Positions 12,965 to 38,888 of a stretch of 42,241 nt of DNA are shown here, piece after piece (the stretch's first letter is position 1; every line of letters begins with the position of its first letter). The stretch lies in assembly GCA_949299165.1 (NCBI GenBank), contig CASFZJ010000012.1, forward strand, positions 1 through 42,241, in the 5' to 3' direction. The stretch is from an uncultured bacterium. Lineage in GTDB: Bacteria; Bacillota_I; Bacilli_A; RFN20; CAG-826. Both the position numbers and the translations under genes were made by a program. Below the pieces are notes generated by a model. The model made no database searches and was not told where the DNA came from. It worked only from the letters and a program-made list of their open reading frames with translations.

Positions 12965-13038
12965 GGGCCCTTAGTTAAATGGGATAACGTTAGCTTTGCA
13001 AGCTTAAGTTAGGAGTTCGATTCTCCTAGGGTCCACCA
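12965..13038 (+). tRNA. tRNA-Ala(TGC)
   Basis: The cloverleaf is complete. The acceptor GGGCCCT/AGGGTCC has the G3-U70 pair that identifies alanine tRNA; the anticodon loop TTTGCAA gives TGC, and CCA is encoded. One T-T mismatch occurs in the anticodon stem. Confidence 0.93.
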
Positions 13039-13052
13039 AATTTGAAAAGAAT

Positions 13053-13129
13053 GGCAGCGTAGCTCAGTTGGTTAGAGCAGTCGGCTCATACCCGGCGCGT
13101 CGGTGGTTCGAGTCCACTCGCTGCTACCA
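13053..13129 (+). tRNA. tRNA-Met(CAT), elongator
   Basis: GGCAGCG/CGCTGCT acceptor with G1-U72, anticodon loop CTCATAC, and close overall similarity to Bacillus elongator tRNA-Met. CCA is encoded. Confidence 0.9.
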
Positions 13130-13148
13130 GAACTTGATTTAACCGGAT

Positions 13149-13224
13149 GGACTCTTAGCGCAATGGTTAGAGCTATCGGCCCATAACCGATCGGTTACAG
13201 GTTCGAGTCCTGTAGAGTCCACCA
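13149..13224 (+). tRNA. tRNA-Ile2(CAT), lysidine type, with C33
   Basis: Acceptor GGACTCT/AGAGTCC and the body match the Bacillus tRNA-Ile2 that reads AUA after TilS converts C34 to lysidine. The anticodon loop is CCCATAA, so position 33, almost universally U, is C. The D stem has a G12-A23 mismatch where GCTC/GAGC is usual. CCA is encoded. The loop position is fixed by the perfect 5-bp stem ATCGG/CCGAT. Confidence 0.85.
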
Positions 13225-13229
13225 CAAAC

Positions 13230-13320
13230 GGAGAAATACTCAAGTGGTTGAAGAGGATGGTCTTGAAAACCATTAGTAGGTGCAAGCCTAGCGTGAGTTC
13301 GAATCTCACTTTCTCCGCCA
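13230..13320 (+). tRNA. tRNA-Ser(TGA)
   Basis: This 91-base class II tRNA has a long variable arm (AGTAGGTGCAAGCCTAGC), acceptor GGAGAAA/TTTCTCC, discriminator G and anticodon loop TTGAAAA, giving TGA. CCA is encoded. Confidence 0.93.
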
Positions 13321-13348
13321 TCTTACTTTCAAATCTATATAAATATAT

Positions 13349-13425
<77 letters not shown>

Positions 13426-19663: not shown

Positions 19664-21442
19664 ATGCTTTATTTAAAGAAAGTTGGTTTAAAAGGAAAAC
19701 TTGGAGATTCTAATCTTGAACTTCATTATGGTTTAAATGTTGTATATGGTTCCTCTAATACTGGGAAAAGCATTATTGTTGAGTGTATTGATTATGCTTT
19801 GGGAGCTAAAGACTGCAACATAGAGCTTGATGGTTACGACACTATTTATCTTACTATAGGGCATAAGGATGGAGACGTTACCATCTTAAGAGAATTAGGT
19901 GAAAATAGGGTAACTATTCAAAGTGAAAATCATCTTATCCAATCAGGAATTTATCCAGTTAAAAGAAAATCTAAAAGTCATGAAAATGATTGGTGTTTAG
20001 ATGATTTTCTTTTGATGCTCTGTGAAATACCATCAAGAACAAAAATTGTTGTTAGTGCAGAATGGAAAAAGCAAAATTTTACTTTTAGAACTTGCTTAAA
20101 TTCATTTTTAATTAAACAAGAAAACATCATTAGAAAAGAAAGCCCATATCTTCCATTTGAAAGAATGGCTCATGGCGCTTATAAATCAGGACTATTATTT
20201 TTATGGACTGGGAATACATATGATAGAGATACTGATTCTGACGATAAAAATTGGCGAATTCGCAAAAGCGCTATAGAAGGATATACAGAAGAACTTTTAA
20301 AAAAAGTCGACCAAGACTATCCTGACTTAGAAGCGAAAGCGAAAGTTGATCCAAAGGAGATGGAAAACAATATTAACACAACTTTGGAACAAATTAACGC
20401 GAATGAGGAGTTGCTACATAAACTTTTTGATGAGAACAAAAATCTTGGTTCTGAGATGTATCAAATCGATGATGAATTAAATGAACTAAACAATCTCCTA
20501 ACAAAATACAAGGCTCTTAATACACAATATTTGGCAGATGAAAAAAGACTCGAGCTTGTTATTGAGGGTGAAAAACATGCTCTTGATTTAGAGGAAAATT
20601 TAACTTGTCCTTTTTGTAATGGAACAATGGATAAAGGTATTAAAGAATCATGTGCCGAAGCTGCAGAAAAAGAGCTTGAACGATTAGCTCCTAAAATAAA
20701 AGATCTAGAAAAAACTTCAATTAACATTAATTTACAAATAGATGATTTAAAAGCCAAAAGAACTGAAATAGTTAATAAGAAGAGAAAAGTTTTAGATAAG
20801 ATTAATCAAGAAATAAAGCCTCTAATTTCAAAGCTTCAAAGTGATATAGAAGTCTATAAAAAAGCGATAGAAGATGCTAAAGAAGCAAAGATTATTATGG
20901 GATTGAAAAAACAATATGAGGATAAAATTGTTGAACTTGACTCACAAATAAAGCCAAAAAAAGATAGCAAGTTTGATGTAATGAATTATTACTCACCTAT
21001 TTTCAATAAGCTTGAGGATGAATATTACCGATTACTAGTTTCTGGAAATTATCATTTTCAAGAAAAACCAATTATTGAAAAGTTTGACTTTGTTATTGAC
21101 GGAAGACATAAATATTCCCAAGGACAGGGATATAGGGCTTATTTGAATGGCTTAGCATGTTTAGCTTTATATAACTCTCTTTGGCAAAATGGCGTTTATC
21201 AGATGCCTTTCTTAATTATGGATTCACCAATTCAGTCACTAGTTGAAAACGACGAAATAACAGTAGAAGAATCTATGCGAACTGGTCTATTTAGATGTTT
21301 AAAAGAAGTTGATGTTTCTAAGCAAGTAATTGTCATTGAAAATAAACTACCTGAAGGACTTGATTATTCTAATGTAAATTTAGTTAGATTTACAAAAGAT
21401 GAAAAAACAGGTCGATATGGATTTGCCAAAGATATTAGATAA
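19664..21442 (+). CDS. ABC-3C / DUF3732-like ATPase with zinc hook
   Basis: This 592-residue SMC/Rad50-type ABC ATPase has Walker A YGSSNTGKS (residues 28-36) and a coiled coil interrupted by a CPFC zinc hook (Cys315, Cys318). The second coil is followed by a signature-like YSQGQGYRAYLNGLA near 485 and Walker B LIMDSP near 518. Such ATPases power ABC-3C systems, proposed to sense invading nucleic acid or replication and trigger an effector. It has ribosome site GAGGAGG and ends at a terminator. It is the third gene of the operon. Confidence 0.8.
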   Translation: MLYLKKVGLKGKLGDSNLELHYGLNVVYGSSNTGKSIIVECIDYALGAKDCNIELDGYDTIYLTIGHKDGDVTILRELGENRVTIQSENHLIQSGIYPVKRKSKSHENDWCLDDFLLMLCEIPSRTKIVVSAEWKKQNFTFRTCLNSFLIKQENIIRKESPYLPFERMAHGAYKSGLLFLWTGNTYDRDTDSDDKNWRIRKSAIEGYTEELLKKVDQDYPDLEAKAKVDPKEMENNINTTLEQINANEELLHKLFDENKNLGSEMYQIDDELNELNNLLTKYKALNTQYLADEKRLELVIEGEKHALDLEENLTCPFCNGTMDKGIKESCAEAAEKELERLAPKIKDLEKTSININLQIDDLKAKRTEIVNKKRKVLDKINQEIKPLISKLQSDIEVYKKAIEDAKEAKIIMGLKKQYEDKIVELDSQIKPKKDSKFDVMNYYSPIFNKLEDEYYRLLVSGNYHFQEKPIIEKFDFVIDGRHKYSQGQGYRAYLNGLACLALYNSLWQNGVYQMPFLIMDSPIQSLVENDEITVEESMRTGLFRCLKEVDVSKQVIVIENKLPEGLDYSNVNLVRFTKDEKTGRYGFAKDIR

Positions 21443-21467
21443 TTTATAAATATTTTTTACAAGTAAT

Positions 21468-21497
21468 GACCTCGAAATAATAATCGGGGTCTTTTTT
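21468..21497 (+). terminator. rho-independent terminator after the ABC-3C operon
   Basis: GACCTCG and CGGGGTC form a 7-bp stem with one G-U around a 10-base loop, followed by six T residues. It marks the end of the defence island. The next 200 bases (21498-21696) hold no convincing gene, only GGGTACCC and a repeated TACCCAA near 21520-21536. Confidence 0.85.
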
Positions 21498-21696
21498 ATG
21501 CTTATTTTTGATGGGTACCCAACGTTTACCCAATGGGATAATCATTATGCTTTTTTAATTTATTGGAAAATATAGGCACAGCAAAGAGCTCTGCTGAAAA
21601 TATATCCGCCTTGATTCTAGATAACCGTTCGGGTGGAGAAGGAATGTAGACGAGAAAACTTAACGGTGATGTTGCTCCGATACTTGGATCAACAAA

Positions 21697-22272
21697 TTGT
21701 CTACAAAATTTAACAAAGATGGTATCAGCCATCCAAAACAAATTATTGAAAATGGTGAAGATTTATTATCACCTAATCCTGCTACAGGAAGAACGAAGTG
21801 CATCAAAGGGTATAAGCATTATCTCTATGGAAAAATCGATATCTGGGTTACTCCAATAGTCTACAAGATTTACTGGTCTTCTAGAAACAAGGAGATCAGA
21901 ACCAGAAACGAAGAAGCTAGATGTACTTATATCTCTACACGTAAGACAGTCAGCATATGCCGTAAGAACTGCAGTGAGTGCAAGTTTTATATGAATAGGA
22001 AATCTCGAGTAACACGCATTGGCGATGATTTTGAGATACCTGATGATTCTTATAATCCTGAACAACTCGCTGAACATAATGACCGCATGAGAAGACTTAG
22101 ACAAGCTATCAACGAACTTGAAGGTAAAAACGATAAAACGATTATTACTCTAGCTCTTGATGATAAATCTAATCGAGAAATTGCATCAGTTCTAAATGTA
22201 TCAGAAGCCTATGTGTCTAAGAGAATGAAACAGATAATTTCTATACTTCGAGAAAAATTAAAAGATTTTTGA
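21697..22272 (+). CDS. sigma-70-like phage regulator (C-terminal region 4 HTH)
   Basis: The ORF has only a TTG start (21697) and no clear ribosome site. The frame is open about nine codons further upstream, so the N-terminus may be truncated or mis-set. A Cys cluster CRKNCSEC lies near residues 88-95. The C-terminal third (NREIASVLNVSEAYVSKRMK near 158-177) is a sigma region 4 helix-turn-helix. Proteins of this kind open the early region of many clostridial prophages and mobile elements, where they probably activate element genes. It is followed by the structured leader at 22312. Confidence 0.65.
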   Translation: MSTKFNKDGISHPKQIIENGEDLLSPNPATGRTKCIKGYKHYLYGKIDIWVTPIVYKIYWSSRNKEIRTRNEEARCTYISTRKTVSICRKNCSECKFYMNRKSRVTRIGDDFEIPDDSYNPEQLAEHNDRMRRLRQAINELEGKNDKTIITLALDDKSNREIASVLNVSEAYVSKRMKQIISILREKLKDF

Positions 22273-22311
22273 AGTTAGAGGTTAAGTATCTTTTCTCAAA
22301 TCGCTCTTTTA

Positions 22312-22371
22312 GGTGAGAACGATAGTGGTCCAGCTATAGCAACACTTAAGGGACTGCTATCAACTCTCGCC
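22312..22371 (+). ncRNA. candidate structured leader RNA
   Basis: GGTGAGA (22312-22318) pairs with TCTCGCC (22365-22371). After a small internal loop, GATAGTGGTCC (22321-22331) pairs with GGACTGCTATC (22351-22361), giving 18 pairs with three G-U. The 19-base apical loop contains the palindrome GCTATAGC, able to form a kissing dimer. No T run follows, so it is not a terminator. It lies between the sigma-like gene and the ribosome site AGGAGG (22380-22385) of the next gene. Confidence 0.6.
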
Positions 22372-22394
22372 ATACCAAGAGGAGGAAAAGATAC

Positions 22395-22577
22395 ATGGCA
22401 AATGAAAAATTACTTAATCAAATCTTTGACGGTAACGATTCAGATGTTCGATCTATCAAATTTTCTCTTAACTTGAGCGATGTCATTGTCGACGTTCGAG
22501 TCAAAAGAAATGAAAGAGAAAACAAGAATCACGAATCTGCTAAAGATTGCAAATGCAGATGTGGAGGTAAACGCTAA
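22395..22577 (+). CDS. small hypothetical protein with Cys-rich tail
   Basis: This is a 60-residue protein of unknown function. It has an acidic/hydrophobic middle and a C-terminal KDCKCRCGGKR, with three Cys that could bind metal. It has an excellent ribosome site and follows the structured leader. Its last base overlaps the start of the DUF2800 gene, so the two are probably co-translated. Confidence 0.65.
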   Translation: MANEKLLNQIFDGNDSDVRSIKFSLNLSDVIVDVRVKRNERENKNHESAKDCKCRCGGKR

Positions 22578-23626
22578 TGACTCCACAAAAACATTCAAAA
22601 TTGTTCAGTCCAAGTAAAAGCTATTATTGGTGCTTAGCTAAATGTTACTTATCTACCGCTTTCAATGATGGCAACAACGAAGAAAATAGTGAAGTTGCTG
22701 AATTTGGAAGTGAATGTCACGAACTTGGATCTATTCAAATTGCTAATGCTTTAGGTATTACTGACTATGAAGGTAATACTAAATCAGTAGAAGAAGCTAT
22801 CAAAGGTTTTAAACATTACGACGAAGCAATGCAAGAAATCGCTAATAGCTATACCAACTTTGTAGTTTCAACTTATGAATATGAAAAAGCAAAAAGCAAA
22901 GAAAAACCACTAGTCTTAATCGAACAACAACTAGATTTAGGATTTGACGAATCATCTGTCGGAACTCTAGATTTAGGAATAATTAGTGATAGGAATGGTG
23001 GAACTCTTACGATAGTGGATCTGAAGACAGGTCACTTGGCTATAAGTAGTTTTGATAAAGAACTAAATCAGCCAAATCCACAATTAGCAATTTATAGCCT
23101 TATGACTTACAAGTGCTTCAAAGATGTTTATCCAATTAAAAACATTAGGTTAGTGATCTATCAACCAGTTATCAATAAAACCAATGAATATGAAATGAGT
23201 GTTGATGAACTTCTAGCCTTTGAAAAAGATGTCCTTGAACCAGCAGTAAAAGCTATTAAAAGTGGTGATAAAACAGCAAGAGAAAACTCTAAATGCAAGT
23301 ATTGTCCTGGTCTTGCTTATTGTAAGAAAAAACTAGATTCTGCAAGGAAATTAGTAGATTTAGATAAAAAAATCGAAACTTTGACTGAAGAAGAAATAAC
23401 TCAAATCTTACCTAAATGCGATGACTATATTGCTTATTTTGAAAAGGTGAAAGAACACTGTTTAAAAAGAGCAATGAATGGTCATAAATATCCTGGCTTT
23501 AAGTTGGTTCATTCAAGAGTTACTAGAAAAATAATTGATGAAAATAAGGTCGCTAAAGCCCTAGAAGAATTAGGCTATTCACCTTATCAAACACCAAAAC
23601 TATTAAGTATCACTGAACTAACTTGA
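22577..23626 (+). CDS. DUF2800 (PD-(D/E)XK nuclease-like) protein, stopped early by TGA
   Basis: DUF2800 proteins occur in phage recombination modules and resemble Cas4/RecB nucleases. Here LFSPSKSYYW and EFGSECHELG open the protein, VDLKTGHLA (near residue 155) holds the D...ExK-like motif, and four Cys (CKYCPGLAYC plus earlier) may bind an iron-sulfur cluster. The frame stops at TGA 23624-23626, but the same frame continues ILGKDKFKEIVSPYV to 23756, which is the normal family C-terminus. About 40 residues are therefore lost by a nonsense change. The catalytic part is upstream and intact. Confidence 0.8.
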   Translation: MTPQKHSKLFSPSKSYYWCLAKCYLSTAFNDGNNEENSEVAEFGSECHELGSIQIANALGITDYEGNTKSVEEAIKGFKHYDEAMQEIANSYTNFVVSTYEYEKAKSKEKPLVLIEQQLDLGFDESSVGTLDLGIISDRNGGTLTIVDLKTGHLAISSFDKELNQPNPQLAIYSLMTYKCFKDVYPIKNIRLVIYQPVINKTNEYEMSVDELLAFEKDVLEPAVKAIKSGDKTARENSKCKYCPGLAYCKKKLDSARKLVDLDKKIETLTEEEITQILPKCDDYIAYFEKVKEHCLKRAMNGHKYPGFKLVHSRVTRKIIDENKVAKALEELGYSPYQTPKLLSITELT

Positions 23627-23750: not shown

Positions 23751-24728
23751 ATGCTAAAAATTGAAACAGGAATTAAACCGAGAGCTATTAAATCAGTTTT
23801 GTATGGTCCTGAAGGCATCGGTAAATCTACACTTGCTAGTGAATTTCCAAATCCTTTATTTATCGATACGGAAAATGGAACTAGCCAACTTAATATTAGA
23901 AGAATCATTTGTAACAAGAGTTGGGATGAACTTATTTCTATCATTAATGAAGTAAAAAGTGATCCATCTATTTGTAAGACTCTTGTTATTGACTCAGCAG
24001 ATTGGGCAGAAACCTTAGCTGAAGATGATGTATGTCAAAAGAATAGAGTGGCATCAATTGAAGCTATCTCATTTGGTAAAGGTTATACATATGTTGGTGA
24101 TAACTTTTCTAGACTTTTGAAGTCATTAGATGAGCTAATTGAACTAGGAATAAATGTAACTTTTACTGCTCATGCTAAGCCTCGTAAGTTTGAGTTACCT
24201 GAAGAAGCAGGACAATTTGATAGATATGAAATGAAACTATCTAGACAAGTTGCTCCACTAATCAAGGAATGGTGCGATATGCTTCTATTTTGCAACTATA
24301 AGACTTATGTCGTAAGTACTGAAAATAATACGAAAAAGGCACAAGGTGGGAAACGAGTAATGTATACATCTCACCACCCTTGTTGGGATGCAAAGAACCG
24401 CTTTAATTTGCCAGAAGAACTAGATATGGGTTTTAGTTCGATTAAGCATTTGTTTTCAAACGTCGAGCCTAAAAAAGGGCTAAAAACGCAAGAAAACACT
24501 GCAAAAACTGTATCAAATTCAAAAAGTAGACCACTTATAGATAAAGTTAGATCACTTCTTAAAGAAGCAAATATAAGCGAATCTGACTTTAAGAAACTAG
24601 TGGAAGCCAAAGGTCATTATAAAAGTGATGTTGCGCTAGAAGACTACTCAGATGATTTCTTGTCACGCTGGGTATTAACGAATTTCAAAAAGATTACTGA
24701 AACTATTAAAAATGGAGGAAATAAATAA
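23751..24728 (+). CDS. phage AAA_24 nucleotide-binding protein, Sak4-like
   Basis: This 325-residue RecA-fold ATPase has Walker A YGPEGIGKST (residues 19-28), DTEN near 43, and Walker B TLVIDSADW near 80. It matches the AAA_24 phage proteins, some of which (Sak4) are single-strand annealing or RecA-like recombinases. It neighbours DUF669 and DUF2800 genes as in other phages. The ribosome site is GGAGG, and the gene overlaps the end of the DUF2800 read-through frame. Confidence 0.8.
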   Translation: MLKIETGIKPRAIKSVLYGPEGIGKSTLASEFPNPLFIDTENGTSQLNIRRIICNKSWDELISIINEVKSDPSICKTLVIDSADWAETLAEDDVCQKNRVASIEAISFGKGYTYVGDNFSRLLKSLDELIELGINVTFTAHAKPRKFELPEEAGQFDRYEMKLSRQVAPLIKEWCDMLLFCNYKTYVVSTENNTKKAQGGKRVMYTSHHPCWDAKNRFNLPEELDMGFSSIKHLFSNVEPKKGLKTQENTAKTVSNSKSRPLIDKVRSLLKEANISESDFKKLVEAKGHYKSDVALEDYSDDFLSRWVLTNFKKITETIKNGGNK

Positions 24729-25228
24729 TGCTAGAAAATAAAGTATTGTCTTGGGACGATGAGATTGTTGATTTAGATGAGGAATATAGATTATTACCTG
24801 AAGGTGATTATTTCTTTAAGGTTGTTAATTTTGAAAGAGCAATGTATCCAGGAGGCGCTAAACTTCCTGCTTGCCCTAAAGCTATTGTCACATTTGCTAT
24901 TTATGATGAATTTAAAGTAGCCACTAGAATTCGTCAAGATTTCTTACTTTGCCAAGATGTCGCATGGAAAATATCACAATTCTTTAAATCAATTGGCGAA
25001 AAGAAAAATGGTGAAAGAATCCAAATGAAGTGGAACATTGTTAATGGTGCTTTTGGTAAATGTCATATTACAACAAGAAGTTACGTCAATAGATTTAACG
25101 AAAATAAGACCATTAATACCATTGATAGATTCTTGCCTTATGACATTGAAGCCATCAATAAATTTAAAGGCGATATAAACCAAAACGAGATGAAAGATAT
25201 CTTGGGTGACGATGACTTACCATTCTAG
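24728..25228 (+). CDS. DUF669 protein, likely ssDNA-binding
   Basis: This 166-residue protein starts on the last base of the Sak4-like gene. LPEGDYFFKVVNFE and a C-terminal acidic DDDLPF tip are typical of DUF669 and of SSB-type tails. DUF669 proteins accompany Sak4-like recombinases in phages and probably bind single-stranded DNA during recombination or replication. Confidence 0.75.
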   Translation: MLENKVLSWDDEIVDLDEEYRLLPEGDYFFKVVNFERAMYPGGAKLPACPKAIVTFAIYDEFKVATRIRQDFLLCQDVAWKISQFFKSIGEKKNGERIQMKWNIVNGAFGKCHITTRSYVNRFNENKTINTIDRFLPYDIEAINKFKGDINQNEMKDILGDDDLPF

Positions 25229-25238
25229 AGGTTAAATT

Positions 25239-26837
25239 ATGTTTGAACTTAGACCTTATCAACAAGAGGCGGTTCAAGCTATAGAAAATGAATGGTTAAA
25301 CGGTAATAAAAGAACATTACTTGTTTGTCCTACTGGAACAGGTAAAACTCAAATATTCTCTTCTGTAATTAAAGACCAAATAAAAGACGGCTCTAATGCT
25401 TTAATTCTAGCTCATAGAAACGAACTCTTAGATCAAGCTTCAAATAGGTTAAAAAATACTTACGGAATTGAATCAGCACTAGAGAAGGCAGAGTCTACTT
25501 CGGTGGGCTCTCCTCTTAGTGTTACCGTTGCCTCCATTCAATCTTTAGCTAATCCCTCTAGACTTAAAAAATTTGATAAAAGTTACTTTAAAACAATTGT
25601 AGTAGATGAAGCACATCATTGTTTGGCAGATACTTATCAAAGAGTATTGAATCACTTTGAAGAAGCAAATGTTTTAGGTGTTACTGCAACTCCTGATAAA
25701 GCTGACCATAAAAACTTAGGTGAGTATTTTGACTCTAAGGCTTTTGAATATTCAATGCCTCGAGCAATTAGAGAAGGCTATCTATGTCCTATTAAAGCTC
25801 AGATGATTCCTCTTCAACTAGATATCAATAATGTCAGTGTTTCAAATGGTGATTATGCAGTAGGTGAAATAGGAAATGCTCTTGAACCTTACTTAAATCA
25901 AATTGCTTTAGAGATGTGTAACTATTGCAAGAATAGAAAGACTGTAGTGTTCCTTCCTTTAGTAAAAACCTCACAGAAGTTCACTGAATTGTTAAATGTT
26001 CATGGACTAAGAGCAATAGAAGTAAATGGTAATTCTAAAGATAGAGAGCAAAGAATAAAAGCCTTTGAAAATGGTGAATATGATGTTCTTTGTAATTCAA
26101 TGTTACTTACTGAAGGGTGGGACTGTCCGAGCGTAGATTGTATTGTCATATTACGTCCAACCAAAGTTAGAAGCCTTTATCAACAAATGGTAGGTAGAGG
26201 CATGAGACTTGCTCCAAATAAGGAGTATTTATTGCTTTTAGATTTCCTTTGGTTAACTGAAAGACATGACTTATGTAAGCCAAGTGGACTACTTGCTAAA
26301 AACGAAGAAGAAGCTAAAAAGATTGATGAAAAGATAGCTAATTCTGGATATGAAGTTGATTTAGTAGAAGCTGAAGAAGAGGCAAAGCGAGATATTGTTG
26401 CTGAAAGAGAAAATGCTTTGAAACGTGAATTAGAAGAAATGCGCAAAAAGAAAAGACAGCTTGTTGATCCTGTTCAATATGCGTTTTCTATTAACGCTGA
26501 AGATTTAGCTAATTATGAACCTACATTTGCTTGGGAAATGGCTCCTATGTCAGTTAAACAAAAAGAGTATCTAGAAAAACATGGAATCTATACTGAAGAA
26601 ATATCCAATGCTGGTATGGCATCTTTAATAATCGATAAACTTAAAAATAGACAAATTGAAGGCTTAGCTACACCAAAACAAATAAGGCTACTAGAAAGAT
26701 ATGGATTTCTTCATGTTGGCTTATGGACGTTTGATGATGCAAGTTTAATGATTACAAGAATAGCAAATAATAAATGGTTTGTTCCTTTTGAAATCAATCC
26801 AAAGACCTACGAACCAAGAAAGGGGATAAGAGCATGA
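25239..26837 (+). CDS. SF2 DEAD/DEAH-box helicase
   Basis: This 532-residue helicase has LRPYQQEAV at the N-terminus (Q motif), Walker A CPTGTGKT near residues 30-37, DEAH near 124, TATP near 150, and motif VI QMVGRGMRLAP near 312. A charged coiled segment (about 365-400) and a C-terminal helical part follow. It belongs to the phage replication module and probably unwinds DNA at the origin. It overlaps the primase gene by 4 bases. Confidence 0.9.
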   Translation: MFELRPYQQEAVQAIENEWLNGNKRTLLVCPTGTGKTQIFSSVIKDQIKDGSNALILAHRNELLDQASNRLKNTYGIESALEKAESTSVGSPLSVTVASIQSLANPSRLKKFDKSYFKTIVVDEAHHCLADTYQRVLNHFEEANVLGVTATPDKADHKNLGEYFDSKAFEYSMPRAIREGYLCPIKAQMIPLQLDINNVSVSNGDYAVGEIGNALEPYLNQIALEMCNYCKNRKTVVFLPLVKTSQKFTELLNVHGLRAIEVNGNSKDREQRIKAFENGEYDVLCNSMLLTEGWDCPSVDCIVILRPTKVRSLYQQMVGRGMRLAPNKEYLLLLDFLWLTERHDLCKPSGLLAKNEEEAKKIDEKIANSGYEVDLVEAEEEAKRDIVAERENALKRELEEMRKKKRQLVDPVQYAFSINAEDLANYEPTFAWEMAPMSVKQKEYLEKHGIYTEEISNAGMASLIIDKLKNRQIEGLATPKQIRLLERYGFLHVGLWTFDDASLMITRIANNKWFVPFEINPKTYEPRKGIRA

Positions 26838-28837
26838 GTGAAGATATTTTAGAAGCACTTAATTTTATCCCTGTTTTTAGTTGCAATTATACCGAATGGA
26901 TAGAAGTTGGTATGGCTTTAAAACACGAAGGATATGATTGTAGCGTATGGGATAATTGGAGTAAAAATGATGATAGATACCATGATGAATGTTATAGGAA
27001 GTGGGAGTCATTTAATGGTTCTTCTAAACCTATTACTGGGGCATCTATCATTAAAATGGCTAAAGAAAAAGGTGGTTATGTCGGTAAAAAGAAGATTAAT
27101 AACACTCGAGTTTTAGCGTGGGACGATTATGTGGAAGATAGCGAAGATCCTAGCATTGATTATTCTAAGTTTAAACCTACTGAACAACTGAAGATATTTT
27201 TAAAGGCGCTATTTAAAAGTGGTGAATATGTAGGCTATGTCAGCAATGATGTTTATTTCAATAAAGACCACGATAGATATGAACCACTCAAAGGAGTTTA
27301 CTATAGAACGGTCGATGATTTGCTTAAGTCTTTAGATAGGTATCCTGATGATTTAGGCGCAACAATAGGCGATTGGAAAAAAGAAGCAGGTGCTTGGATA
27401 AGAATAAATCCACTTGATGGAAAAGGGGCAAGCAAGAAGAACGTCACTAGATATTCGTATTGTTTGATCGAATCTGATGACCTTCCTATTAAAGAGCAGG
27501 AAGAGACTTTCAGAAGGCTAAATCTTCCTATCGCCACGATGGTCTATAGTGGTGGCAAATCGATACATGCCATAGTCAAAGTTGATGCCACCAATATTCA
27601 AGAATATGAAGAAAGAGTGCAGTTTTGCTACGATTTTCTAAAAAATAATGGAATTTCGATAGATATCCAAAATAAAGATCCTAATAGATTATCTAGAATG
27701 CCAGGAGTTACAAGAAATGGCATAGTGCAGACATTATTAGGTGTAAATATTGGCTATGATTCCTGGAAAGATTGGATGGCTTCATTAGGTAGGAACGATG
27801 ATCTTGTAGTAGAAAACCTAGCCACGCTTTTAAATAATCCTCCGCCATTGGCACCAGAGCTGTTATATGGTTATCTAAGAAAAGGTCATAAGTTTCTATT
27901 AAGTGGTGCTTCAAAGTCAGGAAAGAGCTTCGCACTTATTGAACTTGCTGTTGCCTTATCTCAAGGAACGGAGTGGTTTGGATTTAAATGTGAAAAAGCC
28001 AATGTTTGTTATATCAACTTAGAAATTGATAGGGGCAGTGTTGTTAAGCGTTTTGAAGACGTGTGTAAAGAGCTAAAAATAGATAAAAGCGCTGTTGACA
28101 AAGTTAATGTCATAAATCTTAGAGGCAAAGCAAAGCCATTAGATAAACTTGCTCCAGAACTTATAGAAGACTTAAAGGGCAGTGATACTGATGTCATCAT
28201 TATTGATCCAATTTATAAGGTTATTACTGGCGACGAAAATAATGCTACTGAAATGGCTCAGTTTTGTAATCAGTTTGATGTTCTTTGCGATAAACTTCAT
28301 GCAACAGTCATTTATGCACACCATCATTCTAAAGGAACGCAAGGCGGAAAGAGCGCTCAAGATAGAGCAAGTGGCAGTGGTGTATTTGCTAGAGATCCTG
28401 ATGCACTTATGGATATGGTCGAACTCGAATTAGATGACAACTATAAAAACAATGTTTCTGATTATGGAAATGAAGTCCTAGCTTACCAAGTAGAGTGTGT
28501 GGCTCGTGAATTTCCTAAGCCAAAAAGTAGAAAGGTGTTCTTTAAGTATCCTCTCCATATCGTTGATACTTCGGGGCAATTAGATAAGTTTTATCCAAAA
28601 GGCGACATCCATAACGCTCAAAAGGCATCACCTAATCACTCCACTCCAGATAGTAGAAAAGAAAATTTAGATACAGCTTTTAATGTCTTAAATATGGATG
28701 GTAAAGGCGTTTCAGTAAAAGAACTAGCTGACTATCTAGGAAAGAGTGAACGCACCATCCGTGAATATGTAAAGGAGTTTAAAAACCACTATGAAAACAA
28801 ACAAGGAATTATCACTCTTAAAGCTGATGGAAACTAG
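26834..28837 (+). CDS. phage primase/replicative helicase (PriCT-2 plus RepA-like AAA_25)
   Basis: The 667-residue protein has three parts. Residues 1-80 match PriCT-2 (SCNYTEWIEVGMALKHEG...W). A middle primase-like region contains YSGGKSIHAIVKVD and DPNRLSRMPG near 235-295, typical of archaeo-eukaryotic-type primases. A RepA/AAA_25 ATPase has Walker A GASKSGKS at 358-365, Walker B VIIIDPIY near 456, and HHHSKG near 498. A C-terminal winged helix is suggested by VKELADYLGKSERTIREYV. It primes and unwinds at the element's origin. Confidence 0.85.
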   Translation: MSEDILEALNFIPVFSCNYTEWIEVGMALKHEGYDCSVWDNWSKNDDRYHDECYRKWESFNGSSKPITGASIIKMAKEKGGYVGKKKINNTRVLAWDDYVEDSEDPSIDYSKFKPTEQLKIFLKALFKSGEYVGYVSNDVYFNKDHDRYEPLKGVYYRTVDDLLKSLDRYPDDLGATIGDWKKEAGAWIRINPLDGKGASKKNVTRYSYCLIESDDLPIKEQEETFRRLNLPIATMVYSGGKSIHAIVKVDATNIQEYEERVQFCYDFLKNNGISIDIQNKDPNRLSRMPGVTRNGIVQTLLGVNIGYDSWKDWMASLGRNDDLVVENLATLLNNPPPLAPELLYGYLRKGHKFLLSGASKSGKSFALIELAVALSQGTEWFGFKCEKANVCYINLEIDRGSVVKRFEDVCKELKIDKSAVDKVNVINLRGKAKPLDKLAPELIEDLKGSDTDVIIIDPIYKVITGDENNATEMAQFCNQFDVLCDKLHATVIYAHHHSKGTQGGKSAQDRASGSGVFARDPDALMDMVELELDDNYKNNVSDYGNEVLAYQVECVAREFPKPKSRKVFFKYPLHIVDTSGQLDKFYPKGDIHNAQKASPNHSTPDSRKENLDTAFNVLNMDGKGVSVKELADYLGKSERTIREYVKEFKNHYENKQGIITLKADGN

Positions 28838-28895
28838 GATGGAAATGGAAGACAGCTTATATATAGATATTCCCTTACGGAAATATACGGACATA

Positions 28896-28932
28896 GGAAT
28901 AAATAGGGGTTTAAAGTCACCCCTATTCATCC
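28896..28932. repeat. inverted repeat between primase and rusA genes
   Basis: GGAATAAATAGGGGT and ACCCCTATTCATCC pair around an 8-base loop, with 8 perfect inner pairs (ATAGGGGT/ACCCCTAT). There is no T run, so it is not a standard terminator. It lies in the 180-base gap after the primase gene and could be an origin element, an RNA processing site or a protein-binding site. An overlapping open frame here has no ribosome site and is not called. Confidence 0.5.
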
Positions 28933-29017
28933 CTAGTCCTGTGTCAGTTGCAGTTTGCTTAAAAAACAGAATTCCTTTCTTCCATTTAGAAAAACTCAAA
29001 AATTTAGAGGTGGTTAT

Positions 29018-29446
29018 ATGAAGTTATTTCTCTTGTTAGATCCACCAACAATAACTGCTCAAGAAACTAAGGTGGCGATAGTTAATGGTAAGCCTAGATT
29101 CTACAAACCTGAGAATGTAACAAAGGCAAAAGAAGAACTCAAAAAACATTTAAGACCATTTAAACCAAATGAGCCAATGAGTGGTCCTATCGAGTTAAAG
29201 GTCACATGGCTATTTCCAAAAGGTAAAACACATAAACATCTCGAATGGAGAGTTACTAAACCTGATACCGACAACCTTGAGAAACTTTTAAAAGACTGCA
29301 TGACTGAAGTTGGCTTTTGGAAAGATGACGCTCAGGTTGTTAGAGAAATCGTAGAAAAACTATGGAGCGATGAACCGACAGGAATAGCACTCGAAATAGA
29401 AATATTAGGCAAAAGAAAGGAGGTAAATGCTAATGGGGATAATTAA
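29018..29446 (+). CDS. rusA: RusA-family Holliday junction resolvase
   Basis: RusA dimers cut four-way junctions formed during phage recombination. ATG 29018, 5 bases after GAGGTGG, gives 142 residues, whereas the frame runs further upstream without a ribosome site. The catalytic Asp cluster KPDTDNLEKLLKD (near 79-91) and DDAQVV (near 102) are intact, as is the TWLFPKGK strand. It overlaps the next gene by 14 bases. Confidence 0.9.
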   Translation: MKLFLLLDPPTITAQETKVAIVNGKPRFYKPENVTKAKEELKKHLRPFKPNEPMSGPIELKVTWLFPKGKTHKHLEWRVTKPDTDNLEKLLKDCMTEVGFWKDDAQVVREIVEKLWSDEPTGIALEIEILGKRKEVNANGDN

Positions 29447-30387: not shown

Positions 30388-31623
30388 ATGAGTTCATTAA
30401 CAACAATTGTCAAAAGAAAAAAGATTGCTTTATTTGTAGGAGGTCTAGGTTCAGATGGTAATTTCTTTAACCAAACCATCCAAAAATTAAATAGTAAAGC
30501 TCCAACATTAACAAAAGTTTATAGTGAAATTATTGACATGTCAGATTTCAGTGTAACAAACAAACAGTTTGTAGGAGTTTCAAGCGGCTCCTTATTCCCT
30601 TCTTCTAAAGCATTAGAAGCATTCAATTTAAAAATTGCTGAAGTAGTCAATTTAGCAAACTCAAACACCAATACAACTATTATGGTTAAAACAAAGTTAG
30701 ATTTTAGACCTGATAGTGTAGCTAATGGGAAAATAGTTTATAAAAGCTACGAGTCTATTGATAATCAATCAATTAAATTAATTAAAATTATCGAAAGCAT
30801 TAAGCAATTAGATAATTCAATTGAAATCATTCTTGTAGGACATAGTCAAGGAGGTCTTGTAAATTTAAAGACGGCTACTGAAATCCCTAATAAAATCAAG
30901 AAAGTAGTTTCTATTTCTACACCTTACTCGGCTGTTACTACTGCATATTTATTAAGAGCAGTAGAATTTATAGCTAATATTTTTAAAGAAAGTGTATATC
31001 CTTATTTTTCTGCTGGAGATTATGATGAATACGACAAACGTGTTAAAACTTTATCTGATAGTAAGTATTTAACTGAATTAAAAACAAAATGGAACAAATT
31101 ATCTAAAAGACCTGAATTGACAGTAATTGCTGGTATTTCTGCACATTTAATGACGAGTGAGTATTTCGTTTTCATTTTACCATTTGAAATTAATCATAGA
31201 TATCCATTTGATGGTTTAGTAATGGGAAGAGAACAAGTGGATATTGATCATTGTGATTTACATGTCTTACATAATCCAGGAGTTGAATGTTATGAAAAAA
31301 GTGACGGTTTTACTCATTCTTGCTGTTCACAATTTGGATTAATTAATAATCATAATTGTAATTGTGCTTTACCATGTCTTGATATTTCTTCAGCCCTTAT
31401 AAAATTTAGCCTTTCTGCTTTAGAATCAAAGATAAAACAGGGAAATGTAAATCTTGAAGAGTTACCAGTAATTAAAGCGTTTGTCGAAGGAATCAATGGC
31501 GAAACATGTTCGAATGAAAATTATAGACAATATTATGAAGTAATTGGAGGTAATTATAGTCATAAAAATATTGTTATTCAAAATGATACCATTGGTTTAA
31601 TTCTTGGCGTATTTACTAAATAA
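30388..31623 (+). CDS. alpha/beta hydrolase (lipase/esterase-like), cargo module 1
   Basis: At 411 residues, its core has ALFVGGLG (oxyanion-side strand, 14-21), the nucleophile elbow GHSQGG with Ser153, and SISTPYS (176-181), which corresponds to the GTPH motif of PGAP1-like lipases. PFDGLV (Asp275) and SHKN (His392) are candidate acid and base. A Cys/His-rich insert (289-330: HCDLH, HSCC, NCNCALPC) may bind metal. It shares LK..WN.L...P..T.IAG and a final NDTIG motif with the protein at 36856. There is no signal peptide, so it is probably cytoplasmic. The substrate is unknown; a membrane-lipid or ester target is inference. Confidence 0.7.
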   Translation: MSSLTTIVKRKKIALFVGGLGSDGNFFNQTIQKLNSKAPTLTKVYSEIIDMSDFSVTNKQFVGVSSGSLFPSSKALEAFNLKIAEVVNLANSNTNTTIMVKTKLDFRPDSVANGKIVYKSYESIDNQSIKLIKIIESIKQLDNSIEIILVGHSQGGLVNLKTATEIPNKIKKVVSISTPYSAVTTAYLLRAVEFIANIFKESVYPYFSAGDYDEYDKRVKTLSDSKYLTELKTKWNKLSKRPELTVIAGISAHLMTSEYFVFILPFEINHRYPFDGLVMGREQVDIDHCDLHVLHNPGVECYEKSDGFTHSCCSQFGLINNHNCNCALPCLDISSALIKFSLSALESKIKQGNVNLEELPVIKAFVEGINGETCSNENYRQYYEVIGGNYSHKNIVIQNDTIGLILGVFTK

Positions 31624-31656
31624 AAAATTAATAGGAGGACATAAAATATAGTTTGT

Positions 31657-31666
31657 ATGGTATAAT
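31657..31666 (+). promoter_or_regulatory. extended -10 promoter of the module 1 lipoprotein
   Basis: TATGGTATAAT has the TGn extension and a consensus -10 at 31661-31666. It sits between the hydrolase stop and the lipoprotein ribosome site AAGGAGG, so the lipoprotein can be expressed separately. An unused AGGAGGAC lies just upstream. Confidence 0.6.
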
Positions 31667-31692
31667 TGCGCTGTAAGGAAGGAGGAATGAGA

Positions 31693-32133
31693 ATGAAATT
31701 TAAAGCATTATTTTTGTTTGCCATTTCGTTTTTGCTATCTTCTTGTTCCAATAGTCATAATTATTTGGAGATAGGTCAATCGTATAAAACTAGTTTTTCT
31801 AGTAGTGAGTGCTATTATGATATTGTTTTTAAGGAAAAAGATGATAGTACAGTACTATTAGAAATTAGGCGTTTTGGCGATGAGAATTTAGGTATTGTTT
31901 ACAATAAATCTTTTGAAGCTATAAGAATTAATGGCATTGAAAAAGATTATGTCACAACTCAATCGCCAGTCGGCGCAAAACAAATTTATATTGTTGATTT
32001 TATTGATGAAGTGGCTACTGCTGAATTAGTGTTTAATTCTGATGATTTTGAAAAAATATGTATTGAAACTACTACAGCAGTAAACTGGGCAGAAGAAGGT
32101 TCTTACAACGCAATAATCATACATACTAATTAA
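31693..32133 (+). CDS. small lipoprotein, cargo module 1
   Basis: The ATG at 31693, 7 bases after GGAGG, gives a lipoprotein of 146 residues: MKFK, a hydrophobic core, lipobox LSSC and a mature part of about 127 residues. The mature domain appears beta-rich (VLLEIRRFGDENLGIVYN, then ELVFNSDDFEKICIE) and matches no family I know. It would be anchored outside the membrane. It is not similar by eye to the module 2 lipoprotein. A role as a protective or surface-exclusion partner is inference. ATG 31687 is an alternative start. Confidence 0.75.
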   Translation: MKFKALFLFAISFLLSSCSNSHNYLEIGQSYKTSFSSSECYYDIVFKEKDDSTVLLEIRRFGDENLGIVYNKSFEAIRINGIEKDYVTTQSPVGAKQIYIVDFIDEVATAELVFNSDDFEKICIETTTAVNWAEEGSYNAIIIHTN

Positions 32134-32140
32134 ATTTAGT

Positions 32141-32950
32141 ATGATAAAAACTTACAATATTAATTATCCATGTAAAGTAATATCTTCTTTTTATGATAAC
32201 TATTTTGGTGTTCATAAATACGATTTGATCAAGAAAATAACTTTAAGAATTTCTCTTCCTAAATCAAATGAGGAAGAAGATGTGTTGAAGTTATTTATAT
32301 TTTTTCAATTATTTTTTGCTGTTCATCAAGATGAAATTAAAGAGAAAATATTTACTTTCTTTGACTTTGCATTCAAATCTAAACCAACTAATAAGTTTAT
32401 TGAAAACATTAATACTTTTAAATTAGATAATGATTATTCTTGGTTCAATGAAAATATAAACAACTTAAAAAGATTCAATCAATATGAAGCATTTGCTTTA
32501 TTTCTTTTATGTACGTTATTTTTAAATAATTTATTTGGATATTCATGTGTTATTCCAACTAATATAATTGAAATCAATTCACAAATTGAGGGTTATAAAA
32601 TAAAGGAATATTTTAATATAGGATTCGTTACATCACTATTAAAAAAAGACAAGATTGATTTAAAGAAAAGTTTTATTACTTTTATTCATAAAAATGAGGC
32701 GAAATTTAAAAGTTATGGAATAAGAGAAATATATTTGTTTGGCTCTATTAATTCTGAAGAGTATCATGACTCAAGCGATTTTGATTTGGTTGTCAGATAT
32801 AAAGATGGAATAAATTATTGTGATTTAGAAAATATTGATAACAAAATTAGAAAGAAAATAAGGGATAAATTTAAACGTGATGCGGATATCATTAATTACG
32901 ATGATTATATTTCTATCCGTAGTTTAGAAACGGCAACAAGGATTTTATAA
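32141..32950 (+). CDS. nucleotidyltransferase with C-terminal MNT domain, cargo module 1
   Basis: Residues 198-269 form a minimal Pol-beta-fold nucleotidyltransferase: YLFGS (Gly201, Ser202), then SDFDLVV with Asp213 and Asp215, and a third acidic residue Asp249 in RDADII. The usual Arg of GSxARG is absent (GSINSE). The first 190 residues are alpha-helical and unrecognised. It starts 8 bases after the lipoprotein stop without a ribosome site, so translation is probably coupled. The YLFGS-to-end length (72) equals that of the module 2 protein. It is very AT-rich by eye, suggesting transfer. MNT proteins act as antitoxins or AMP/NMP transferases in known systems. Confidence 0.75.
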   Translation: MIKTYNINYPCKVISSFYDNYFGVHKYDLIKKITLRISLPKSNEEEDVLKLFIFFQLFFAVHQDEIKEKIFTFFDFAFKSKPTNKFIENINTFKLDNDYSWFNENINNLKRFNQYEAFALFLLCTLFLNNLFGYSCVIPTNIIEINSQIEGYKIKEYFNIGFVTSLLKKDKIDLKKSFITFIHKNEAKFKSYGIREIYLFGSINSEEYHDSSDFDLVVRYKDGINYCDLENIDNKIRKKIRDKFKRDADIINYDDYISIRSLETATRIL

Positions 32951-33026: not shown

Positions 33027-33563
33027 GTGGCTAATAGAAAAAATAAAAGAATTTACACAACTGATATCTGGGAACAATGGAAAAAAGATGGAAAGTTAGA
33101 AGAAGTTTTAGCTTTTATTGCCGATTGCTCTAAAAAGCTCGTCACTCAAAGGGAGATGTGCAAATACCTCAAGATTGAAGAACATACTTTTACTAATTTG
33201 AAACACAAATATCCTCAAATCCAAGAGGCAATGGACAAATCCAGATACGAGTTAAAAAAGGACTTAGCAAATGCGATGTATAAAAAGGCAATAGGCTATG
33301 AAACTATCGATGAAGATCAATTAATCGAAGAAAAAGATGGCAAGCAAAAGAAGAAAGTTCATCGAATTAAAAAGCAAGTCGGACCTGACTTTAAGGCTAT
33401 AGTTTATCTATTAACTAAGAAGTTTGGTAAAGAATATAGCGAAAGATATGAAGACTTAAGACTTGCTGAAAAGAAACTAGAAGCACAAAAGGAGGAATGG
33501 AACAGTGTCGAATCAATCACAGAAGAATATGACGATAGTGATGAAGAACATAGCGGAGATTAA
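33027..33563 (+). CDS. terminase small subunit-like HTH protein
   Basis: GTG 33027 lies 9 bases after AAAGGAGG; the nearer ATG 33023 stops after three codons. The 178-residue protein has an N-terminal helix-turn-helix (LVTQREMCKYLKIEEHTFTN near 38-57) and a charged helical C-terminal half with DFKAIVYLLTKKFG, the pattern of many phage small terminases that bind the packaging site. No large terminase follows in the window, so the identity is only likely. It overlaps the methyltransferase gene by 59 bases. Confidence 0.55.
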   Translation: MANRKNKRIYTTDIWEQWKKDGKLEEVLAFIADCSKKLVTQREMCKYLKIEEHTFTNLKHKYPQIQEAMDKSRYELKKDLANAMYKKAIGYETIDEDQLIEEKDGKQKKKVHRIKKQVGPDFKAIVYLLTKKFGKEYSERYEDLRLAEKKLEAQKEEWNSVESITEEYDDSDEEHSGD

Positions 33564-34761
33564 GCCTTATGACAACAATCCTAGACATAATGAAGCGGCG
33601 GTTGATGCAGTCGCCAGTTCCATCAAGGAGTTTGGTTGGAAGCAGCCTCTAGTCATCGATAAGGACAACGTGATAGTGGTTGGGCATACGCGTTACTTGA
33701 GCGCCAAAAAGCTAGGACTTGATGAAGTTCCATGTCTTATAGCTGATGACCTTACTGAAGAACAAATTTCGGCTTATAGACTTGCAGATAACAAGACTAA
33801 TGAACTAGCAACTTGGGATTTTGAAAAGTTAAAAGCTGAACTCGAAGGAATCTCTGATATTGATATGTCCCAATTTGGCTTTGAAGAATTAGAAGCGAGT
33901 CTTGATGACGTCAAAGACGATAACTTTGATGAAGAAGGAGCGCTTAGTGAAACGCCTTATTCGAAAAGAGGAGATATCTTTGTTCTTGGAAGTCATCGCC
34001 TTATGATTGGTGATTCCACCCTAAAGGAAGATGTCGATAGACTTTGTGACGGTAAGCAGGCTGATATGATTTTTACGGACTTGCCTTATAACGTGAACTA
34101 TGAAGGGCAAGATGGAATGACCATCCAAAACGATAACATGAGCGATGAGGATTTTAAGAAGTTTCTTGATGCTTCATTTGCTAATCTATATGAGCATGTA
34201 AAAGTAGGCGGCTCTATTTATTGTTGCCATGCAGATAGTGAAGGCTTGAATTTTAGAAGCGCAATGAAAAATGCAGGTTTTAAAATTGCCGAATGTTTGA
34301 TTTGGGTAAAAAACTCTCTAGTACTTGGGAGACAAGATTATCATTGGCGTCACGAACCTATCCTTTACGGATGGAAAGAAGGTGCGGCTCATTACTTTGT
34401 TGATGATAGAACCCAAGATACAGTTTGGGAGTACGATAAACCAAGAAGCAATGATCTACATCCAACAATGAAGCCTATCGAATTGGTAGCTAGGGCAATT
34501 AAAAACTCATCAAAACCAAAAGAACTGGTACTTGATCTGTTCGGCGGTTCAGGAACGACGCTGATAGCAAGCGAGCAACTTGGAAGAAAAGCTCTCATGA
34601 TGGAGTTAGATGAAAAATATGCGGATGTAATAGTCAAACGATTTATCACTCTTAAGCACTCGACGAATGGGTGCTTTTTAATTAGGGATGGAATTAAAAC
34701 CCCATTAAGTGAAATCGTCGACTATAAGAGGGTTTTAGAGAGTGATGAGCTCTTATCTTAA
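33505..34761 (+). CDS. ParB-like nuclease domain fused to DNA methyltransferase
   Basis: GTG 33505 has a GGAGG 9 bases upstream and gives 418 residues. The N-terminal ParB/sulfiredoxin-like domain shows NPRHN near 23-27 and VVGHTRYLSAKKLG near 60-73. The methyltransferase has motif IV DLPY (192-195; usually DPPY) and motif I DLFGGSGTT near 345, in beta-class order. Such fusions are common in phages, probably methylating phage DNA to escape host restriction, which is relevant beside a type III system. The next gene makes its cofactor, SAM. Confidence 0.9.
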   Translation: MSNQSQKNMTIVMKNIAEIKPYDNNPRHNEAAVDAVASSIKEFGWKQPLVIDKDNVIVVGHTRYLSAKKLGLDEVPCLIADDLTEEQISAYRLADNKTNELATWDFEKLKAELEGISDIDMSQFGFEELEASLDDVKDDNFDEEGALSETPYSKRGDIFVLGSHRLMIGDSTLKEDVDRLCDGKQADMIFTDLPYNVNYEGQDGMTIQNDNMSDEDFKKFLDASFANLYEHVKVGGSIYCCHADSEGLNFRSAMKNAGFKIAECLIWVKNSLVLGRQDYHWRHEPILYGWKEGAAHYFVDDRTQDTVWEYDKPRSNDLHPTMKPIELVARAIKNSSKPKELVLDLFGGSGTTLIASEQLGRKALMMELDEKYADVIVKRFITLKHSTNGCFLIRDGIKTPLSEIVDYKRVLESDELLS

Positions 34762-34824
34762 AGTTACTCCAATTGAGCGACTTAAGAAAAATAATAATAA
34801 ATTTTGAAAGGAAAAATAATAATT

Positions 34825-35940
34825 ATGGAAAAATATGTAACTTGTGAATCAGTTTTTAGAGGACATCCGGATAAGCTCTGCGATCAGATTAGCGATGCCA
34901 TTTTGGATGAATATTTACTAAAAGATAAAGACTCAAGGGTGGCGATTGAATGTTCTATCAAGGATAACCTAGTCATTATTTTTGGTGAGGTTACCTCTGA
35001 AGGTAATGTGAATTTAGAAAAGGTAGCTAAAAGAGTTTTAAGAGATGTTGGCTACTTTGATAACTTTGTCGTCATTACTAAGGTTTCTACTCAGTCTTGG
35101 GATATAGCAAAAGGAGTAGATAAACTTGGGGCAGGTGACCAAGGAATCATGTATGGTTATGCTACTAATGAAACAAAAGAGTGCCTACCTCTTCCTTATG
35201 TGATTGCTAGAGATATTTCAAAAGCAATAGAAAACATCAGAAAAGAAAAATACATGGATGTTCTTATGCCTGATGGTAAGTGCCAAGTGACTGTTAGATA
35301 TGAAGATGATAAGCCAAAAGAAATCAAAACAATTGTTGTAAGTGCTCAAACTAAAAAAGGAGTTAAACTTGAAGAAGTAAAAAGAATCATTAAAGAAGAA
35401 GTTTTAATTCCATTACTTGGTTCTACTCTTGATGGCATTGAGATTTTAGTTAATCCAACTGGAGCGTTCTTTAGAGGTGGTCCTTATGCCGATAGTGGAC
35501 TTACAGGAAGAAAACTTATGGTCGATACTTATGGTGGAGTAGCGCATCATGGCGGAGGAGCCTTCAGTGGCAAGGACTATACCAAAGTTGATAGAAGCGG
35601 CGCTTATTATGCAAGATTTGTTGCTAAGTCTATTGTAGATGCAGGACTAGCTGATAAATGTGAAGTAGCTGTTTCTTATTCGATTGGTGTAGCAAGTCCA
35701 GTAGGTGTAAGCATAGATACTTTTGGCACAGGAAAACTTAGTGATGACGAGCTTTTAAAACTCATTAATGATTACTTTGATTTCTCAGTAGGCAACATCA
35801 TAAAAGAACTTAAATTAAAGGATATCTCTTATCAAAGATTAGCGGAATATGGTCACTTTGGTAATGATATTTATCCTTGGGAGAATGTAGATGGAAAAGT
35901 CAGTGAGCTCAAGAAGGCTACAGCCAAAGCGTCTACATAA
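34825..35940 (+). CDS. metK: S-adenosylmethionine synthetase, element-encoded
   Basis: The enzyme makes SAM from methionine and ATP. The 371-residue protein (ATG 34825; the in-frame TTG 34804 is less likely) has ESVFRGHPDKLCDQISDA near the N-terminus, GAGDQGIMYGYA near 112-123, and GGGAFSGKDYTKVDRSGAY near 245-263, all catalytic signatures. It lies 63 bases after the ParB-methyltransferase gene and overlaps HNH by 50 bases. A dedicated SAM source beside a phage methylase suggests high methylation demand. Confidence 0.94.
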   Translation: MEKYVTCESVFRGHPDKLCDQISDAILDEYLLKDKDSRVAIECSIKDNLVIIFGEVTSEGNVNLEKVAKRVLRDVGYFDNFVVITKVSTQSWDIAKGVDKLGAGDQGIMYGYATNETKECLPLPYVIARDISKAIENIRKEKYMDVLMPDGKCQVTVRYEDDKPKEIKTIVVSAQTKKGVKLEEVKRIIKEEVLIPLLGSTLDGIEILVNPTGAFFRGGPYADSGLTGRKLMVDTYGGVAHHGGGAFSGKDYTKVDRSGAYYARFVAKSIVDAGLADKCEVAVSYSIGVASPVGVSIDTFGTGKLSDDELLKLINDYFDFSVGNIIKELKLKDISYQRLAEYGHFGNDIYPWENVDGKVSELKKATAKAST

Positions 35941-37992: not shown

Positions 37993-38000
37993 TTATTAAA

Positions 38001-38038
38001 AGGCGAGTAGCATCAATGAAGTTGCTCGCCTTATTTTT
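38001..38038 (+). terminator. terminator between the hydrolase and nucleotidyltransferase genes of module 2
   Basis: AGGCGAGTAGC (38001-38011) and GTTGCTCGCCT (38021-38031) form an 11-bp stem with two G-U, then TTATTTTTA. It stands 8 bases after the hydrolase stop and ends about 16 bases before the next ATG, so expression of the nucleotidyltransferase would depend on read-through. Confidence 0.8.
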
Positions 38039-38054
38039 ATGAAAGGTAATTACT

Positions 38055-38849: not shown

Positions 38850-38863
38850 ATCTTTGATTATTG

Positions 38864-38872
38864 TGGTAAAAT
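38864..38872 (+). promoter_or_regulatory. extended -10 promoter of the module 2 lipoprotein
   Basis: TGGTAAAAT (TGn plus -10) lies between the nucleotidyltransferase stop and the GAGGTGAG ribosome site, mirroring the TGGTATAAT before the module 1 lipoprotein. Confidence 0.5.
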
Positions 38873-38888
38873 AAAAGAGGTGAGAAAG

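Follow-up and report, generated by a model that had tools for sequence, protein, structure and literature searches.

A structured leader ahead of a prophage recombination operon: candidate promoter DNA that may double as an RNA lock on the Shine-Dalgarno sequence

On the long early messages of bacteriophage T4, the Shine-Dalgarno (SD) sequences of the genes e, soc, 49 and I-TevI are held in a helix, and the late promoters are placed such that the late messages lack the 5' strand of this helix; synthesis of lysozyme from the structured e messages is reduced 100-fold (both as described in PMC3014915 and PMC2988022). The DNA analysed here, a window of 42,241 nucleotides from contig C12 of a 1.43-Mb genome, carries a leader that is akin to those of T4 in several respects: an upstream strand is predicted to sequester the SD, a candidate phage promoter overlaps the sequestering strand, and a hairpin fronts a phage gene. 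With the leader and riboswitch families of Rfam it shares the character of a cis-acting structured leader; no Rfam family (release 15) fits it, however: there was no relevant match at the gathering score, nor any at E ≤ 10 for the leader region, and 18 related loci likewise gave none at E ≤ 5. A 'DUF2800' RNA motif that was considered as a possible identity found no support when all Rfam families were scanned with cmscan, and no paper pairing DUF2800 with an RNA motif turned up in the open literature. Within that open literature, which includes PMC8093625, PMC3014915 and PMC2988022, we found no description of this leader.

The element occupies positions 22286-22394 and forms the structured 5' leader of an operon that constitutes a prophage recombination/replication module (Table 1). 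It is preceded by a gene for a sigma-like protein in which Pfam and the alignment show region 4 only, and the gap between this gene and the start codon of the Cys-rich gene measures 122 nt. The DUF2800 nuclease gene of the operon looks truncated in the window, since it ends at an in-frame TGA (23624-23626) beyond which the frame stays open and past which relatives read on, most of them running about 40-50 residues longer.

Table 1. Coordinates of the leader, its helices and the neighbouring genes in the window.
Feature	Position	Strand	Basis or remark
Sigma-like regulator gene, TTG start; Cx3Cx2C cluster followed by sigma-70 region 4	21697..22272	+	Pfam Sigma70_r4_2; PHROG 13787, plus two PHROGs annotated 'RNA polymerase sigma factor'
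Promoter-like stretch (inferred): GAGGTTAAG, 16 nt, GCTCTTTTAGGTGAG	22278..22317	+	alignable to the bipartite motif found in other leaders, with a weak score
P1 clamp helix, 5' anti-SD strand	22286..22308 (pairing 22286-22296, 22301-22302, 22304-22308)	+	fold and duplex shuffles
P2, 5' strand; partners 22365-22371 and 22373-22374	22310..22318	+	fold; paired columns in A2
P3, 5' strand; partner 22351-22361	22321..22331	+	fold; both-sided changes in A2 pairs
Apical loop, 19 bases, with GCTATAGC at 22333-22340	22332..22350	+	fold, palindrome test
P3 and P2, 3' strands	22351..22374	+	fold
P1 clamp helix, 3' strand: SD AGGAGG (22380-22385) and spacer	22377..22394	+	fully paired in the long leader
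Cys-rich gene (60 aa), which opens the operon	22395..22577	+	no Pfam or PHROG match
DUF2800 / PD-(D/E)XK nuclease gene	22577..23626	+	Pfam; in-frame TGA ahead of the end reached in relatives
Remaining operon: AAA_24, a 166-aa gene that matches no Pfam family, ResIII/DEAD helicase, PriCT_2/AAA_25 primase-helicase, RusA	23751..29446	+	Pfam

Elsewhere in the window, two look-alike cassettes (30388-32950 and 36856-39305) each hold genes for an alpha/beta-hydrolase, a nucleotidyltransferase (Polbeta/NTP_transf_2) and, judged by eye, a short lipoprotein-like protein; the gene order differs between them, and the two nucleotidyltransferases are weakly similar (25% over 79 aa). A full S-adenosylmethionine synthetase gene (34804-35940) lies inside the prophage region and is adjoined by a ParB/N6_N4 DNA methylase gene (33505-34761). 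A cluster of five tRNA genes, three of them with the anticodon CAT, is found at 12965-13425, and an Amidoligase_2 gene followed by a small gene that resembles gamma-glutamylcyclotransferase by eye occupies 40258-41609.

The sequence-only reading had placed an interrupted hairpin of 18 pairs, without a T-tract, at 22312-22371, between the sigma-like gene and a ribosome site. Both statements hold: the hairpin is present (7 outer pairs, 22312-22318 with 22365-22371, and 11 inner pairs, 22321-22331 with 22351-22361), its stability of -24.4 kcal/mol (z -5.0) was equalled by none of 200 shuffles, and no T-tract follows it. The boundaries drawn at that time cover P3 and most of P2; they are too narrow in that they miss P1. 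The hairpin merely tops a larger structure, whose base continues with 22286-22308 paired with 22377-22394. When the entire gap from the stop codon of the sigma-like gene (22272) to the ATG of the Cys-rich gene (22395) is folded, one long rod results, made up of P1, P2, P3 and the loop (-45.9 kcal/mol for 22273-22420, z -5.1; 0 of 200 shuffles). Upstream open reading frames within the leader, such as one opening with the GTG at 22313, were judged by eye and dropped as candidates because they lack a preceding SD in most of the classes of leaders.

A search with the nuclease gave a match in 32 of 293 genomes. The alignment of the Cys-rich protein gave a match in 16 of 279 genomes of the order; two of these matches (E 0.0009) are probably unrelated, being part of very long frames, and one further Cys-rich relative came from genome_contigs. 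Besides the window, leaders directly before the Cys-rich gene fall into class B (L032, L034, L037, L043, L049) and class C (L033, L035, L036), and these eight leaders have the same layout as the window, with a hairpin inside an SD clamp, a sigma-like gene on the upstream side and the same Cys-rich gene downstream. The sigma-like gene lies 107-124 nt ahead of the start codon in all seven class B and C loci examined; no such gene or frame was found within 450 nt upstream in the class D loci L003, L004 and L041. While the Cys-rich protein is conserved, arms and loops of the leaders diverge strongly between the classes, and the anti-SD strands of the two classes differ (UUCUAAA and CUCCU) opposite a nearly identical 3' side.

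The P1-P2-P3 layout is common to all nine leaders of alignment A2, which, since the members of classes B and C are close relatives, represent about three independent lineages, so that a single-lineage bias remains. In A2, 77.1% of 188 cells pair, a share reached by none of 500 column shuffles; covariation amounts to 0.246 versus 0.169 (0 of 500 shuffles), 6 of 21 pairs have changed on both sides (7 of 500 shuffles), and these counts are lowered by MAFFT, which misaligns class C by one column in P3. The true register performed better than every slide of 1-3 columns. G-U pairs are common, and together with the both-sided changes they point to an RNA of the + strand. Among 279 genomes of the order, a covariance model built from these leaders (R1) picked out eight with E ≤ 6e-10, each time at the leader of the Cys-rich gene, and the next match has E 0.023; as these matches are the members from which R1 was built, the result speaks for the specificity of the model and adds no new members. 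Weak matches (14-21 bits, E 0.04-1.2) fell in the leaders of L004, L005, L041, L044, L045 and L048, and R1 did not reach the leaders of the 49 viral loci of set A5. Collectively, we regard the RNA structure of 22286-22394 as almost certainly real.

In the long leader of the window, the model assigns the SD a pairing probability of 0.98, a value that is itself equalled by 15% of promoter-segment shuffles. The P1 duplex, which covers the entire SD and 9 spacer bases, is stronger at -18.6 kcal/mol (shuffle mean -10.4) than 99.87% of shuffles, its strength being attained in 13 of 10,000 promoter shuffles. When the modelled message begins at GGTGAGAACG, the pairing of the SD drops from 0.98 to a still appreciable 0.57. 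Because 22286-22308 pairs with 22377-22394, a message that includes the former stretch should have the SD of the Cys-rich gene shut, and we consider it likely that this is so on long messages in the window.

Alignments of nuclease relatives fetched 49 (A5) and 80 (A6) viral loci. Protein scans of viral_contigs with the nuclease of the window itself, the Cys-rich protein or its alignment gave no relative; neither the phages collection nor 95 other genomes contained a DNA match to the leader region, and the exact stem patterns of the leader occurred 0 times in viral_contigs. Wherever visible, the order in A5 is constant, with a regulator gene, a short leader, a small gene and the nuclease, and two regulators checked against PHROGs look sigma-like. 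The wider leaders stand before small genes other than the Cys-rich one. They often consist of a hairpin and an anti-SD, such as AAACCUC with GAGGUUU in group E, and mostly have short loops without the palindrome of the window. Some members of group E (L082 and L090) have lost the clamp, and four leaders offer no space for a hairpin. In three of these four (L084, L085 and L105) the inner hairpin is lost and GTGAAG directly abuts the SD; bases complementary to the SD are still present in these three, though not beyond shuffles (P 0.41-0.44), and L105 and L085 contain different pairs that are each complementary (AAACCUC:GAGGUUU and AUUCUU:AGGAAU, as read from the listing).

A structure-blind Gibbs search of 41 diverse leaders returned the motif gTCCTnnGnnTAGTGAARGG with a score of 351, against a maximum of 302 in 20 shuffled sets; judged by eye from the listings, a spacing of about 15-16 nt separates it from a CGTTCAAAA-like block upstream. 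The promoter-like stretch of the window scores weakly (5.6, among the lowest), its -35-like part GAGGTTAAG differs from the CGTTCAAAA type of the tandem cases, and the window contains no second copy, tandem and distant copies being confined to relatives. Second upstream copies are present in 7 of 28 loci tested (L129, L135, L138, L146, L163, L169, L193); the copies keep both blocks, and the spacer is freer in most of the loci. The repeat of L193 covers almost the entire stretch, and for L138 the search recovered the second block alone. The phage of L193 (G341:C1, 37482-37690) harbours three direct repeats with a period of 87 bp, each with the element, plus one divergent copy, and the record of L135 contains two copies. 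The element occurs four times in the phage of L163 (G343:C1), twice outside the leader (minus strand, 5612 and 37249) and both of these times before genes: one copy has a divergent orientation and a gene 79 nt further along; the other copy, about 32 kb away and ahead of a gene that looks HTH-like by eye, is itself followed by a GAAGG...CCTTC hairpin. Reversed-pattern controls in L193, L135 and L163 yielded 0 each. The copies that lie away from the SD of a leader hint at a role of the motif at the DNA level, and the distribution in the L163 phage looks like a phage regulon. The genome of the window also possesses a second DUF2800 module with a leader of its own (L218; G000:C19:15000-18600), in which TTCCTTTTGAAAGTGTAAGGG lies in the gap behind a 223-aa frame.

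The first gene could be placed for 71 leaders, 22 from genomes, 25 of the 49 A5 loci and 24 of the 80 A6 loci (40 of the 80 were inspected). Among 62 non-redundant leaders, the median probability of a paired SD was 0.72, compared with 0.63 for 268 control starts (P 0.0015). Replacement of the promoter segment by shuffles lowered the mean SD pairing in 53 leaders from 0.70 to 0.65 (P 0.03), a value that stays high because a G-rich SD finds partners easily. With start sites hand-picked by eye, mean SD pairing in these 53 leaders was 0.42 on the short message versus 0.70 on the long one, and the duplex of promoter and SD was significant alone (P ≤ 0.05) in 9 of 53 (KS P 5e-4, Fisher 3e-5); the two top places in this test go to the window and L089, with 0 of 300 shuffles each. 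Given this modest rise in SD pairing and the nine significant duplexes, the lock is a recurring rather than a fixed trait; the clamp is strong in the window and uneven in the wider set. For the hairpin, we rely on a motif-anchored count from which 12 of 41 leaders with a motif match outside -97 to -45 were excluded: for 21 of the 29 that remain, the stretch from the end of the motif to the SD has a better fold than its shuffles (P ≤ 0.05), as opposed to 5 of 29 upstream stretches. A previous count (42 of 49) was set aside because its start sites had been picked by eye with knowledge of the folds. In a fixed segment (-70 to -12), hairpins with z ≤ -2 are mildly enriched (9 of 41 versus 24 of 193, P 0.005), a test in which the leader of the window scores z 0.0 because its hairpin is cut.

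These data lend themselves to a model in which the choice of the start site governs translation. Read-through messages from the sigma-like gene would contain the clamp strand and would hardly be translated from 22395. A promoter within 22278-22317, whose factor would probably be the sigma-like protein encoded directly upstream, would start messages at about 22312-22318; such short messages would lose the clamp strand, would begin with the stable hairpin, which would also protect the new 5' end, and would make the SD easier to reach. One and the same stretch would thereby act as promoter in its DNA form and as lock in its RNA form, so that the operon would be translated well only after its own promoter has been used. 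We assign a probability of roughly one half to this whole reading, in which read-through messages are shut and internally started ones translated; an internal promoter with T4-like timing in the window, taken by itself, has somewhat less than an even chance.

Of the competing explanations, a 5'-end or processing hairpin, which would shield the operon message at its 5' end or provide an RNase III site with the SD pairing as an incidental matter, comes closest, although we think it unlikely. It would account for a hairpin that is more widely kept than the clamp and begins where the promoter-like motif ends, and the long rod of about 38 pairs would fit RNase III; against it, P1 in the window spans the SD and 9 spacer bases with a strength beyond 99.87% of shuffles, and the hairpin-less L084, L085 and L105 retain SD-complementary bases, albeit not beyond shuffles. 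The rod might alternatively be a translational operator, bound by a ligand or by a phage protein such as the Cys-rich first product that holds or opens the SD, as T4 gp43 or gp32 act on their own messages. That the Cys-rich gene directly follows the leader in the window and eight class B/C loci would suit such autoregulation, but arms and loops vary strongly between classes despite the conserved protein, the wider leaders precede other small genes, and no Rfam riboswitch or leader matches, which makes this possibility improbable. Still less credible is an inverted repeat that serves as a protein site on DNA and folds as RNA merely as a by-product: the bipartite DNA motif does overlap with the 5' half, and the genomes of two relatives contain further copies, in tandem and at other places, yet the motif accounts for the 5' half only, changes in the 5' strands are accompanied by changes in the 3' strands, and the many G-U pairs would not be kept by a DNA dyad.

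The sequence-only reading had suggested a structured leader that may regulate the Cys-rich gene and the recombination operon, or else a stand-alone phage RNA, and had pointed to a loop palindrome able to form a kissing dimer. The former is supported by pairing with compensatory changes in homologous leaders, the outcome that the sequence-only reading had named as support. An RNA acting in trans, or loop-loop dimers, are very unlikely, as the fold lies in cis, directly ahead of the start codon, in all leaders examined. The palindrome is there (GCTATAGC in the window), and the loops of class B (AGCTAGCT) and class C (ACCGGT/GAATTC) have palindromes too; an 8-base palindrome nevertheless arises in such a loop in 0.157 of dinucleotide and 0.048 of mononucleotide shuffles, the palindromes as a group do not exceed dinucleotide shuffles (0.12-0.36), and the loops of the wider leaders are mostly short and devoid of it, so that a self-complementary loop beyond chance and kept in homologues was not found. 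Co-folding of two copies of the hairpin gives -59.2 compared with 2 x -24.4 kcal/mol; this is an extended duplex that any long hairpin could form. A terminator or attenuator of the sigma-like gene is the least plausible of all: the fold does sit just behind the stop codon of this gene, but it has no T-tract and runs straight into the SD, and the sole terminator-like site within 21400-22700 lies at 21468-21491.

Extended beyond the window, the start-site model would describe a portable control unit across many prophages of Firmicutes-like hosts. A small sigma-like protein (a Cys cluster and region 4, with no region 2 seen) would recognise a bipartite promoter that also encodes the anti-SD strand and is followed by a 5'-terminal hairpin; the choice of the start site would license translation, the recombination genes remaining silent on read-through and being switched on once the phage factor acts, and the unit would also stand before other genes of the same phages. 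We regard this extension as doubtful. If true, temperate phages of poorly studied bacteria would time their recombination genes by a T4-style combination of promoter DNA and RNA lock, and a large group of unassigned sigma-like genes would gain a candidate promoter and regulon.

Like the autoregulatory operators of T4 gp32 and gp43, the leader is a phage leader structure ahead of the start of a replication gene; unlike these, it has no conserved loop sequence and is not known to bind a protein. It departs from the leaders of T4 e, soc, 49 and I-TevI in that it belongs to a prophage and a recombination operon with inferred start sites, in the long covarying hairpin placed between the clamp strands, and in the sigma-like gene directly upstream. 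The parts are of known kinds; what is new is that they occur together with a sigma-like gene, a covarying hairpin and a recombination operon.
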